DNA of 5,857 bases. It comes from Desulfotomaculum sp. GTDB lineage: Bacteria > Bacillota > Desulfotomaculia > Desulfotomaculales > Nap2-2B. The stretch lies in the NCBI GenBank assembly GCA_003445555.1, contig DMDI01000060.1, positions 6,802 through 12,658 of the forward strand, in the 5' to 3' direction. Shown piece by piece: positions 1,984-5,693 of the stretch. The notes beneath the pieces were generated by a model. The model searched no databases and was not told the origin of the DNA. It saw nothing but the letters and a program-made list of their open reading frames with translations. Within the stretch, counting starts at the first letter, position 1. Every line of letters starts with the position of its first letter. The position numbers and the translations under genes are program-made.

Positions 1984-3405
1984 TTAATCTTTACCCTTAA
2001 TTACGGCTAACGGGTGCATCCGGGCAACTTTTTGGGTAAAACCAAGGGTAACTAGCGTGTTTATTACTTCGTCAATATTTTTATAGGCCGGGGGTGCTTC
2101 ATCAATTAACTCCCGGTAATTACGGGCGTTGTACAACACCTCGCCCATACTTCCGTTAAATTCTTCTCTGGTGATTACTTTGGCCGCGGCGTTTCGGGAA
2201 AGGACCCTTCCTGCCCCGTGGTTTACCGAAAAGAAGGTTTCTTTAGCCAGCGGGGTACCCACCAATACGTATGAAGCCGTACCCATGCTGCCCGGAATTA
2301 AGACCGGATGACCGGTGTTTAAATAAACAGGCGGATTATCCGGGTGCCCGGCGGGCAAAGCGCGGGTAGCTCCTTTACGGTGGATTAATACCCGGGCTTT
2401 ATTATGCTTTTCCCATTTGGCAATGTTATGGGCCACGTCGTATACTATTTTCATTCCCAGCTTTAGTGGTGTTTCACCCAAAACACCGGCAAAAGCCTTC
2501 ATCACGTCATGCATAATAATTTGCCGGTTGGAAAAGGCAAAATTTACGGCGCAGGCCATGGCAGCATAGTAATTTTTTCCTTCCGGAGAATTAATGGGGG
2601 CGCAAGCCAAACCTTTACTGGGTAAGTTTAGTTTATATTTTTCGGCTACCGTAAGTAAGCTTCTGGAGTAATCCGTGCAAATCTGGTGGCCGAAACCGCG
2701 GCTGCCGGTATGGATCATTACGGTAAGCTGGCCGGGAAAAAGTCCAAAGGCTTTGGCCAGCGACCGGTCGAATATTTCTACCACCTCCTGAAGCTCAATA
2801 AAATGATTGCCGCCCCCCAACGTTCCTAACTGCACCGAACCTCGCTCATATGCTTTACTGCTTAACGCGCCTAAGTCAGCGCCTTTTAAGCAACCTCTTT
2901 CTTCTATATGTTCTAAATCTTGCTCGTGACCAAAACCCTGAGCAATTACCCCTTTTGCCCCGGTATAAACCACCTCTTCAAAAATGGCCCGGGTAATTCC
3001 GTGGTGACGGCCTTTACGGCCGATACCGGTAGGGATATATTCTTCAATTTTTTGCATTAACTCCCTTAAAATAGGCTTATTAAAATCACGGGCCTGTAAG
3101 CCGGTCCTTACTAAACGAACGCCGCAATTAATATCCATGCCCACGGCCCCGGCCGAAATTATTCCCTCCTCGCCTACGGCCATCACTCCGCCTATGGGCA
3201 GGCCAAAACCTTCGTGAATATCCGGCATACCCACCACCGGACTTATTACGCCAGGCAACTGGGCCGCGTGAGCCAACTGTTCCAGAGATTTATCCTCATA
3301 CAGGTAAGAAACCAGCGCCGGACTCACAAATACAACCACTTCCACCCGCCTCCCTTCTGCCCGGGCCAAGCGGTAGCGGTTAACACCCTCCGAAATTAAC
3401 TTCAC
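1984..3405 (-). CDS. rtcB: RtcB family RNA ligase (GTP-dependent RNA-splicing/repair ligase)
   Basis: RtcB joins RNA 2',3'-cyclic-phosphate or 3'-phosphate ends to 5'-hydroxyl ends using GTP and Mn2+, through a histidine-guanylate intermediate. At 473 residues it matches the long bacterial/archaeal form. The metal and active-site set is complete: D91 and C94 in MDINCGVR, N200 and H201 in GGGNHF, H232 in HTGSRGFG, H326 in YDVAHN, and H396, the expected guanylated histidine, in VNHGAGR. MPDIHEGFGLPIGG (60-73) is another family signature. The spacing agrees with the Pyrococcus enzyme (D95, C98, H203, H234, H329, H404). The start is GTG with GAGG four bases upstream. A near-copy of this start region lies 64 bp upstream. 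The activator archease, often encoded beside rtcB, is not in this window. The gene lies between a slipin gene and a DUF4125 gene in the same direction, so a role in RNA repair or tRNA processing is inferred from the family alone. Confidence 0.96.
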   Translation of the reverse strand: MKLISEGVNRYRLARAEGRRVEVVVFVSPALVSYLYEDKSLEQLAHAAQLPGVISPVVGMPDIHEGFGLPIGGVMAVGEEGIISAGAVGMDINCGVRLVRTGLQARDFNKPILRELMQKIEEYIPTGIGRKGRHHGITRAIFEEVVYTGAKGVIAQGFGHEQDLEHIEERGCLKGADLGALSSKAYERGSVQLGTLGGGNHFIELQEVVEIFDRSLAKAFGLFPGQLTVMIHTGSRGFGHQICTDYSRSLLTVAEKYKLNLPSKGLACAPINSPEGKNYYAAMACAVNFAFSNRQIIMHDVMKAFAGVLGETPLKLGMKIVYDVAHNIAKWEKHNKARVLIHRKGATRALPAGHPDNPPVYLNTGHPVLIPGSMGTASYVLVGTPLAKETFFSVNHGAGRVLSRNAAAKVITREEFNGSMGEVLYNARNYRELIDEAPPAYKNIDEVINTLVTLGFTQKVARMHPLAVIKGKD

Positions 3406-3417
3406 TATTCCTCAACC
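3392..3417 (-). repeat. Direct repeat copy B: rtcB ribosome site and first five codons
   Basis: This 26-bp block covers the rtcB ribosome site, the GTG start and codons for K-L-I-S. It matches the block at 3456-3481 in 23 of 26 positions, with all three differences in or just before the start codon region. The copies are 64 bp apart, so this looks like a diverged tandem duplication. Confidence 0.85.
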
Positions 3418-3421
3418 AATC

Positions 3422-3469
3422 CTAGCCGTCAAGCCGGAACCTGATAAACACTTGGGAAATTAACTTCAT
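3422..3469 (-). other. 15-codon mini-ORF (MKLISQVFIRFRLDG) ahead of rtcB: duplicated rtcB start or leader peptide
   Basis: In the 75-bp gap between slipin and rtcB, an ATG at 3469 opens a short frame ending in TAG at 3422-3424. Its product resembles the RtcB N-terminus (MKLISEGVNRYRLAR): MKLIS is identical and Arg-aromatic-Arg-Leu follows at the same positions, 10-13. AAGGA just before the ATG could serve as a ribosome site. Its stop lies 16 bases before the rtcB GTG, close enough for coupled translation. It is either an abortive relic of a tandem duplication or an upstream ORF that tunes rtcB translation. The sequence cannot tell which. Confidence 0.55.
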
Positions 3470-3481
3470 TATCCTTCAACC
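3456..3481 (-). repeat. Direct repeat copy A: start region of the mini-ORF upstream of rtcB
   Basis: This is the upstream partner of the block at 3392-3417 (23 of 26 bases identical). It begins at the last base of the slipin stop codon and contains an ATG where rtcB itself has GTG. Similarity beyond the 26-bp core fades to partial matches over about 38 more bases, so the original unit may have been the whole 64-bp period. Confidence 0.85.
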
Positions 3482-4251
3482 TACTTTTGTGCTTCGCCTT
3501 CTTGTTCTTGAAAAAATTTCAGGAACGGTTTAATTATATCTAAAGGTAAAGGAAAAACAACCGTACTGGCCTTATCGGTAGTAATTTCTCTTATGGTTTG
3601 CAGGTAGCGAAGCTGTAAAGCGGCTGGAATTTGAGCAATTATTTTTGCCGCTTCGACCAGTTTTTCGGCCGCCTGGTATTCGCCGTCGGCGTGGATTATT
3701 TTTGCCCGCTTTTCCCTTTCTGCTTCGGCCTGCGCGGCCATGGCCCGCTGCATGGTAGGCGGTAGTTCTAAGTCCCGGATTTCAACCAGACTGACTTTAA
3801 TTCCCCATGATTCTGTACCCTCGTCAATGGTTTTTTGCAGGCGTTGGTTAATTTCCTCCCTTTTTCCCAGGATTTCGTCTAATTGCGACTGTCCCATAAT
3901 ACTGCGCAGGGTGGTTTGGGATAACTGCGAAGTAGCGCGAATAAAATCAAGCACGTTAATTACGGAATGAACCGGGTCTACCACCTGAAAATAAACAATG
4001 GCGTTTACTTTAATGGTAACGTTATCGTTGGTAATAGTTTCTTGAGCGGGAACGTCCATAGTAATTAACCTTAAGTCAGCCTTTTGCATACGCTCAATGA
4101 AGGGGATTAAAAGTATTAAGCCCGGTCCCCGCGCCCCTACGCAACGACCCAGCCGAAAGATTACCCCCCGTTCATATTCCTGGACAATACGAATGGAAGC
4201 AAACAGGATCATTAAAACAATAATCACAATAATAGTAATTAAAATACTCAT
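3481..4251 (-). CDS. Slipin/stomatin-like SPFH (band 7) membrane protein
   Basis: This is a 256-residue member of the stomatin/prohibitin/flotillin superfamily, which forms oligomers that organise membrane patches; prokaryotic slipins are typically encoded next to NfeD. Residues 1-20 form one hydrophobic membrane segment. [16 protein letters not shown] (21-36) is the classic SPFH opening, followed by GPGL and IPFIERM. The band 7 domain runs to about 165. A charged Ala/Glu/Lys-rich coiled-coil stretch follows (about 168-205). The tail contains a hydrophobic segment (STVVFPLPL, 229-237), matching the type of site that the Pyrococcus NfeD protease cuts in its stomatin partner. I place the start at the ATG ending at 4251, with AGGAGG nine bases upstream and the membrane segment directly after. 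A longer frame from TTG at 4338 would add 29 basic residues, but lacks a ribosome site. It lies 131 bp after nfeD. Confidence 0.93.
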
Positions 4252-4260
4252 TCTTCTAAA

Positions 4261-4266
4261 CCTCCT
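4261..4266 (-). promoter_or_regulatory. Slipin ribosome binding site (decides start at 4251)
   Basis: AGGAGG on the - strand, within UAGGAGGU, lies nine bases before the ATG at 4251. It would fall inside the coding region if translation began at the upstream TTG (4338), so it supports the shorter protein. Confidence 0.85.
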
Positions 4267-4276
4267 AAAATTTGTT

Positions 4277-4305
4277 GTAGGGACGTTAGATTTAACGCCC
4301 CCCAC
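4277..4305 (-). repeat. Compact palindrome/RNA hairpin in the nfeD-slipin gap
   Basis: On the - strand the arms GUGGGGGGCGUUA and UAACGUCCCUAC flank an AAUC loop. They pair almost fully, with two G.U pairs and one bulged G. On the + strand the same positions give A.C mismatches, so the fold fits RNA from the operon transcript. It ends ten bases before the slipin ribosome site and has no U-run directly after it, so it is not a normal terminator. It may be a processing or stability element, or one copy of a small dispersed palindromic repeat. The rest of the 131-bp gap shows nothing convincing. Confidence 0.7.
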
Positions 4306-4382
4306 GTATTTAGTTTTCACTTTTTTTAGGGTAAACAATTTTAATTGCTCGTCTACTAATTTGAATGGCTAATTAGCGCTGG

Positions 4383-5693
4383 TTATTTTTTCTTGACCCG
4401 CAGTTTTAAGCCCTCCATGCCGGTAATGATTACTTCTTCCCCCTCATCACACCACCCCTCCTCGGCTATGGCCTGCCAGAGTCCGCCGGCGTAAAGGACA
4501 GTTCCTTTGGGGTTAAGAGGTGTACGCGTGACCGCCACCTGGCCTACGACTCCTTCCTGTCCTGTTGTTATCCGACGTTTTTGACCCCGTATAATGGCCA
4601 TAACCAGCAAAAATAAAAGACCGGCGAATAATACGGTAATGGTAAAAATAAGCCAGGGGCTAACCCTTAAACCCGGTTCACTTCCTGAAAAAAGAAGCAA
4701 AGAACCTAGCACGAAAGCCACCAACCCTCCTGTTCCCAATAAGCCATGGCTGACAAAAAAAGCTTCGGCAATAAAAAGACCAAAGGCCAATACCAAAAGC
4801 AAGAGCCCAACCCAATACGCTTCAAGAGTTCCCAAACCATAAAGCCCCAGTAAAAGACTCAAACCCCCAATTATACCGGGAAAAACAGCTCCTGGATGAT
4901 ATATTTCTACCATCAGACCAAGCATCCCTAAAGTAAATAACAAATAAGCTATTTCCGGGTTGCTAAAAGTCAAAAGAGATTTTTCCCGCCAGTTCAGATC
5001 TATTGGGTGCAGGGAAATATTTTTTGTTTTCACGGTTACCGGCTGGTTGTTTTTCAGCGTAAAGCTTTTTCCATTTAACTTGGCCATTAATTCTTCCAGG
5101 TTCCGGGCCCGGGCATCAATTAAATTTTTTTCTAGCGCCTCTTTATCGGAATACGATTTACTTTTTTTTACGGTGAGTTCGGCCGCCTGGACGTTTCTCC
5201 CCCGCATTTGGGCCAGTGAGCGAATCCAGGCGGCTGCATCTTCGGTGATTTTTTCGCCGGGAATCTTTGCTTCTTCTTGCTGACCAACGGATACGGGGTG
5301 AGCGGCTCCAATCCTGCTTCCCGGAGACATAACGGCGTAATGAGAGGCTACGGTGATGAAAGTGCCTGCCGAAGCAGCCCAGCCTCCCTGAGGAAATACA
5401 TAAATTACCACCGGGACTTGAGCACTTAAAATCCGGCTGACAATTTGCTGGGTTGATTGGTAAAGACCGCCGGGAGTATTAAGTTTAATGAGGCAAAAAG
5501 AAGCGCGGTTCTCTTCGGCATAACTAATTCCCCGGTCAAGGTAACTGGCTACCACCGGGACAATTGGTCCATCTACCGTAAGAACTACCACTTCATTTTT
5601 TGGGGTTTCTGCCGACCCCAAATTAACCGGCCACAAAAAAATTAGCAGCAAAATAAAAAGAAAAAAGATTGATTTGCTTTTATTTATTCTCAT
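4383..5693 (-). CDS. nfeD: NfeD family membrane-bound ClpP-class serine protease (long form)
   Basis: This 436-residue protein combines three modules. A signal peptide or anchor (about 7-28) ends at GSA. A ClpP-like protease domain follows (about 34-205). Then come about five membrane segments (roughly 248-268, 270-290, 293-315, 317-337, 346-369) and a C-terminal OB-like NfeD domain (375-436). The catalytic Ser-Lys dyad is visible as S108 in WAASAG and K148 in GEKITEDAA, matching S97 and K138 of the Pyrococcus protein PH1510; NTPGG (72-76) is the expected oxyanion-side motif. The Pyrococcus homologue cuts the hydrophobic tail of its stomatin partner, and here the next gene encodes such a slipin. 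Together they probably act in membrane quality control. The ATG start has AAGG six bases upstream and an extended -10 promoter about 55 bp further up. It is full length with no sign of decay. Confidence 0.95.
   Translation of the reverse strand: MRINKSKSIFFLFILLLIFLWPVNLGSAETPKNEVVVLTVDGPIVPVVASYLDRGISYAEENRASFCLIKLNTPGGLYQSTQQIVSRILSAQVPVVIYVFPQGGWAASAGTFITVASHYAVMSPGSRIGAAHPVSVGQQEEAKIPGEKITEDAAAWIRSLAQMRGRNVQAAELTVKKSKSYSDKEALEKNLIDARARNLEELMAKLNGKSFTLKNNQPVTVKTKNISLHPIDLNWREKSLLTFSNPEIAYLLFTLGMLGLMVEIYHPGAVFPGIIGGLSLLLGLYGLGTLEAYWVGLLLLVLAFGLFIAEAFFVSHGLLGTGGLVAFVLGSLLLFSGSEPGLRVSPWLIFTITVLFAGLLFLLVMAIIRGQKRRITTGQEGVVGQVAVTRTPLNPKGTVLYAGGLWQAIAEEGWCDEGEEVIITGMEGLKLRVKKK

Follow-up and report, generated by a model that had tools for sequence, protein, structure and literature searches.

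Why does an RNA ligase gene carry a second copy of its own start directly upstream, and what might that copy do to the gene? The question is raised by a 5,857-nucleotide stretch of Desulfotomaculum sp. DNA (hereafter the window, to which all coordinates refer), in which the minus strand carries, in this order, nfeD, slipin, rtcB, a DUF4125 gene and a transketolase-like gene. The rtcB gene (1984..3405, minus strand) has a GTG start and encodes a protein of 473 residues. The PF01139 domain spans the whole protein (1-426 of 426, 520.7 bits, E 4.7e-156), which places it among the RtcB RNA ligases, and a 99% identical RtcB, P0001, is found in JGI/ENA sources. The upstream slipin gene (SPFH/Band 7, PF01145; 3481..4251, minus strand), the start of which was set at an in-frame ATG, ends with a TAG codon at 3483-3481. 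The nfeD and slipin genes (3481-5693) lie directly ahead of rtcB both here and in two sister genomes, and an SPFH/NfeD membrane pair adjoins an RNA-repair gene. Directly 3' of rtcB, positions 1404-1967 encode a DUF4125 protein of unknown function.

An earlier note on this DNA had described a tandem duplication of the rtcB start, 64 bp apart, and the alignment bears it out. At the slipin-rtcB junction, the block at 3456-3481 recurs 64 bp away at 3392-3417, with 23 of 26 bases identical. The upstream block (copy 1 head, 3456..3481, minus strand) comprises a ribosome site, an ATG codon, K-L-I codons and two bases of an S codon, and its first base is the final base of the slipin stop codon. The downstream block (copy 2 head, 3392..3417, minus strand) comprises the ribosome site, the GTG and the first codons of rtcB itself. 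The 64-bp unit is completed by a 38-nt copy 1 tail (3418..3455, minus strand), which bears a weak likeness to rtcB codons.

No pair of 26-mers within 300 nt of each other agreed at more than 20 positions in any of 100 dinucleotide shuffles of the window. As a natural control, 83 loci (577,354 bases) were searched, and 15 clusters of comparable 26-mer repeats were found in 7 of them. Three of the 83 loci are redundant (L032, L033 and L034 are contained in L126, L124 and L125), and the five L032 clusters are the same as the five L126 clusters, which leaves 10 distinct clusters, one of which (in L067) contains Ns. Because of these 10 clusters, direct repeats of 23/26 strength must be regarded as uncommon, though not unheard of. 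Among 66 distinct rtcB starts, picked by script and including the present one, none of the other 65 has a match above 16 of 26 positions in its 200 nt of upstream sequence.

Comparison within the genus drew on three further genomes: G001 (Peptococcaceae bacterium SCADC1_2_3), G002 (UBA4795, DHGP01000004.1) and G003 (UBA2203, DCUX01000022.1). In G002 and G003, slipin is followed directly by rtcB, with a single ribosome site and an ATG start codon, whereas the window has GTG. Relative to both, the window has exactly 64 extra bases at the slipin-rtcB junction, and on these alignments the 64 bp are a clean insert with respect to the two sister species. G001 is uninformative for the insert, as its contig lacks everything before rtcB codon 9, and it shows no match to slipin or nfeD. 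The insert is therefore absent from two of two informative congeners, and it was found in no other of the 11 family genomes searched. Among the seven family genomes of other genera, six have no match to the junction DNA, and the remaining one, G007, matches the rtcB start in a single short stretch. A different repeat is seen in G001, where a stretch of about 340 bases 3' of rtcB on contig 11 (L126, 2998-3340, equivalent to L032) contains five overlapping close 26-mer direct repeats. According to the earlier note, absence of the repeat from sister strains, together with free drift of the short frame that it opens, would mark it as a neutral relic. The first half of this is what we found in the two informative congeners; drift of the frame has no second genome in which it could be followed.

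The frame in question, also described in the earlier note, is present in the sequence. This mini-ORF (3469-3422, minus strand) consists of 15 codons and a stop, encoding MKLISQVFIRFRLDG; it begins with ATG at 3469, 11 nt after the slipin stop codon, and ends with TAG at 3424-3422, 16 nt ahead of the rtcB GTG at 3405. The description of this frame as an in-frame decoy could not be sustained. A spacing of 64 equals 1 modulo 3, and the mini-ORF is therefore out of the rtcB frame (+1), in which, moreover, a TGA occurs three codons before the GTG. An in-frame N-terminal extension of RtcB was ruled out by the same two features. As read from the sequence, the mini-ORF stands alone as a short frame, neither an extension of RtcB nor an in-frame decoy. 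No coding constraint was seen in its tail (score p 0.39 and 0.20).

The two parts of the insert differ in their resemblance to other sequences. The copy 1 head matches G002 at 25 and G003 at 23 of 26 positions. The tail matches copy 2, G002 and G003 at 17, 19 and 17 of 38 positions, respectively. These are poor matches, albeit above those of shuffled sequences (p about 0.006, 0.0005 and 0.006), and no convincing second site for the tail was found in the four genus genomes. The head matches copy 2 better than the tail does (23/26 vs 17/38, Fisher p 0.0005), although this contrast is inflated, as the boundary of the head was set by the match itself. At fourfold sites of three genes, 17-27% of positions differ between the window genome and the two sisters, whereas the tail differs at 21 of 38 (55%), and neutral decay of a whole 64-bp duplicate since the sister split was rejected on these figures. 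Since the tail is far more diverged than fourfold sites, it would be either filler or part of a duplication that predates the sisters and was lost there. A scan of 3300-3700 gave two sigma-70-like matches where 0.4 would be expected. One of them, on the gene strand (9/12, 3432-3404), has its -10 element overlapping the rtcB start codon; a promoter in the insert was rejected, as the transcript would start inside the gene. No Rfam family matched at gathering scores.

Because the start region, GAAGTTAATTTC, comes close to being identical with its reverse complement, a direct repeat of it is also an inverted repeat, the two copies of which can pair. In the minimum-energy structure, a 13-bp helix is predicted between a 5' arm within mini-ORF codons 1-5 (3456..3468, minus strand) and a 3' arm within rtcB codons 1-5 (3391..3403, minus strand), and the duplex of the two starts has a predicted energy of -11.9 kcal/mol. 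To open the rtcB start (-12..+15) is predicted to cost 14.9 kcal/mol, compared with 6.8 in G002 and 7.7 in G003. For the start codon and first codons alone, the values are 11.2 vs 3.8 and 3.4 in the sisters, whereas opening the 12 bases before the start is predicted to cost 5.6, no more than the 6.1 and 5.9 of the sisters. The predicted cost exceeds that of both sisters at 25, 37, 50 and 60 C and in four of five fold windows, the exception being the shortest (60 nt upstream and 30 nt downstream; 9.6 vs 7.3 and 10.9). When the whole insert was shuffled with its composition kept, 1 of 200 sequences reached the natural opening cost. The cost was reached by none of 200 sequences when only the head was shuffled (mean 7.0), and by 8% of 200 when only the tail was (mean 11.0).

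The pairing of the two starts suggests how the insert might act, and we tentatively favour a reading in which it holds RtcB translation down as long as no ribosome sits on the mini-ORF. The insert places a second ribosome site, start codon and set of first codons between slipin and rtcB, and the two start copies would pair in the mRNA and hold the rtcB start closed. Ribosomes finishing slipin, or loading directly, would initiate at the mini-ORF and, by pushing aside its half of the helix, free the rtcB start, and RtcB output would then follow mini-ORF translation. When a ribosome is modelled at the mini-ORF start, the predicted rtcB opening cost falls from 14.9 to 7.2, which makes the mini-ORF the predicted key to the lock. 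With the modelled ribosome in the middle of the mini-ORF the cost is 7.6, at codon 12 it is 10.1, and at the slipin stop codon it is 15.0, leaving rtcB opening unchanged. The mini-ORF start is predicted to be open in a piece that excludes the second start, as would be the case before the latter is transcribed (4.5 in the main window, in which the second start is outside the piece; 3.3-8.0 over five fold windows). By this modelling, the insert would probably act as an RNA lock that translation of the mini-ORF opens, rather than by the theft of ribosomes.

The latter idea had been put forward in the earlier note, in which the upstream ATG captures ribosomes and starves the real GTG. In its favour, the mini-ORF has ATG where rtcB has GTG, the two ribosome sites are similar, and the -12..-1 region is predicted to be cheaper to open at the mini-ORF than at rtcB (2.3 vs 5.6). 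On polycistronic bacterial mRNAs, however, each ribosome site loads independently, and capture would thus need overlap or structure; here the predicted structure, in which the two starts pair with each other, makes occupancy of the mini-ORF help rtcB. Ribosome competition is accordingly not the strongest reading of the junction, and we consider it most improbable. A neutral relic, that is, an accidental insertion or partial duplication tolerated in one lineage with no selected consequence, is by comparison nearly as likely as the RNA lock. The insert was seen in one genome only and is missing from both informative congeners, its tail differs at 21 of 38 positions with no sign of coding constraint, a frame of 15 codons may well be short enough to arise by chance, and the 130-nt leader is of unremarkable stability (z -0.23, with 76 of 200 shuffles as stable). 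The occurrence in one genome and the ordinary leader also weigh against the lock, and so do three further points. The helix is no evidence of selection, because it is the automatic outcome of copying the self-complementary rtcB start. The mini-ORF start is itself predicted to be buried when both copies are folded together, as they would be once transcribed (11.6). Finally, the 16-nt gap is long for reinitiation, as coupling was almost abolished at a gap of about 20 nt in six gene pairs summarised in PMC10666635. What a neutral relic accounts for less well is the large predicted effect on the rtcB start and, subject to the inflation noted above, the better preservation of the head than of the tail.

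Two other proposals concern the origin of the junction rather than its action. In one, a G002-like donor contributed the slipin 3' end together with the copy 1 head, and an imprecise join, padded by 38 nt of filler, connected these to the rtcB start already present. Over the whole window the sequence is closer to G003, which it matches at 441 informative sites compared with 227 for G002 and 33 for neither. The slipin end and head, in contrast, are 98% identical to G002 (86 bp) and 91% to G003 (85 bp), and at the three sites in the first 27 bases at which the sisters differ, copy 1 is of G002 type at all three and copy 2 of G003 type at two. With a G002-like head (25 of 26 positions) and slipin end in a window otherwise closer to G003, a recombination join is a possible origin. 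The most G002-like stretch, 3489-3811 in the slipin 3' end, abuts the insert and could be a conversion tract, but it is not significant in a scan of the whole window (p 0.10), and none of the four genus genomes offers a convincing source for the filler. We regard such a join as rather unlikely; it would explain origin and not effect, and is compatible with either the lock or a relic. An assembly chimera of two strains could produce the same mosaic of G002 and G003 similarity at the junction, and the window's own genome is an incomplete draft (70% complete, 310 contigs). The copies are non-identical, however, and the 38-nt tail is without a convincing match elsewhere in the four genus genomes, which argues against a simple join at a shared word, and the contig continues through both genes in the order seen in the sisters. 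A chimera thus appears very unlikely.

The earlier note had also suggested, from the frequent proximity of archease genes to rtcB, that the repeat could mark a past rearrangement. Diverse bacteria and archaea encode archease and rtcB in one operon, as summarised in PMC3973293, but no archease match was obtained in any of the 11 family genomes (the window's own, 70% complete, included; six are at least 90% complete) by a search that was positive in 6 of 14 control genomes. None of the six window proteins scanned is an archease, and the locus is thus not an RtcB-archease operon; slipin directly precedes rtcB in both sisters as well, and the suggestion finds no support here. The genomes with a full-length rtcB-like match include the window's own and four of the other ten of the family, and in G001 the match covers all but the first codons. 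Elsewhere, rtc genes respond to damaged tRNA or translation stress, as outlined in PMC7790460 and PMC10272220. In the latter, a slipin-family gene and rtcB, located at different loci, are listed in one table of genes with changed expression for the Anabaena regulator TrcR.

By analogy with these responses and given the role of RtcB in RNA repair, a translation-sensing switch would be plausible for rtcB. In its strongest form, the copy would have supplied both an upstream ORF (uORF) and an antisense arm in one step, and RtcB would be made only once ribosomes paused on the copy, which translation stress would cause them to do. We consider this extended version quite unlikely. Should it nevertheless be true, any gene with a self-complementary start could gain an RNA lock by plain tandem duplication. 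A direct repeat of such a start would provide a uORF and a pairing arm together, a one-step route that can be searched for in any genome. Leader-ORF switches are known, and to our knowledge their origin has seldom been caught early. Even if no more than a relic, the repeat would remain a clean, lineage-specific insert predicted to alter the translation of an RNA-repair gene.

A narrow word search of the open literature returned no report of a uORF or reinitiation derived by duplication and, in titles and the beginnings of abstracts, no rtcB leader peptide. Several known systems nevertheless resemble the predicted arrangement. In termination-reinitiation coupling (PMC6728339 and PMC10666635, as summarised there), genes follow one another as slipin, the mini-ORF and rtcB do here at short distances of 11 and 16 nt; unlike in that arrangement, no stop and start codons overlap here, and the gaps approach the length of about 20 nt at which coupling is almost lost. 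In the ermB and ermC attenuators, according to the summaries in PMC8274638 and PMC5118997, stalling of a ribosome on the leader ORF is believed to weaken an inhibitory stem-loop ahead of the gene, a step resembling the one proposed here for the mini-ORF. In contrast to an ermB/ermC-type stall peptide, the mini-ORF peptide owes its likeness to the RtcB N-terminus solely to being a copy of it. Of the features expected of attenuators, a structure over the gene start is predicted at this locus (the 13-bp helix, 14.9 vs 6.8 and 7.7 in the sisters, in a leader of ordinary overall stability), whereas conservation of the uORF across relatives, a supporting rather than strictly defining sign, is not seen in the two informative congeners. 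The nearest system, judged by its abstract, is toiL-topAI of E. coli (PMC12121999), which likewise combines a short upstream ORF with a proposed structure over the downstream ribosome site, and in which antibiotics that stall ribosomes on the uORF, such as tetracycline at its start codon, relieve the repression of topAI. That system has been studied by experiment, whereas the rtcB lock is predicted and its arms are two copies of one gene start; the working principle, as far as these summaries describe it, is that of uORF attenuators.
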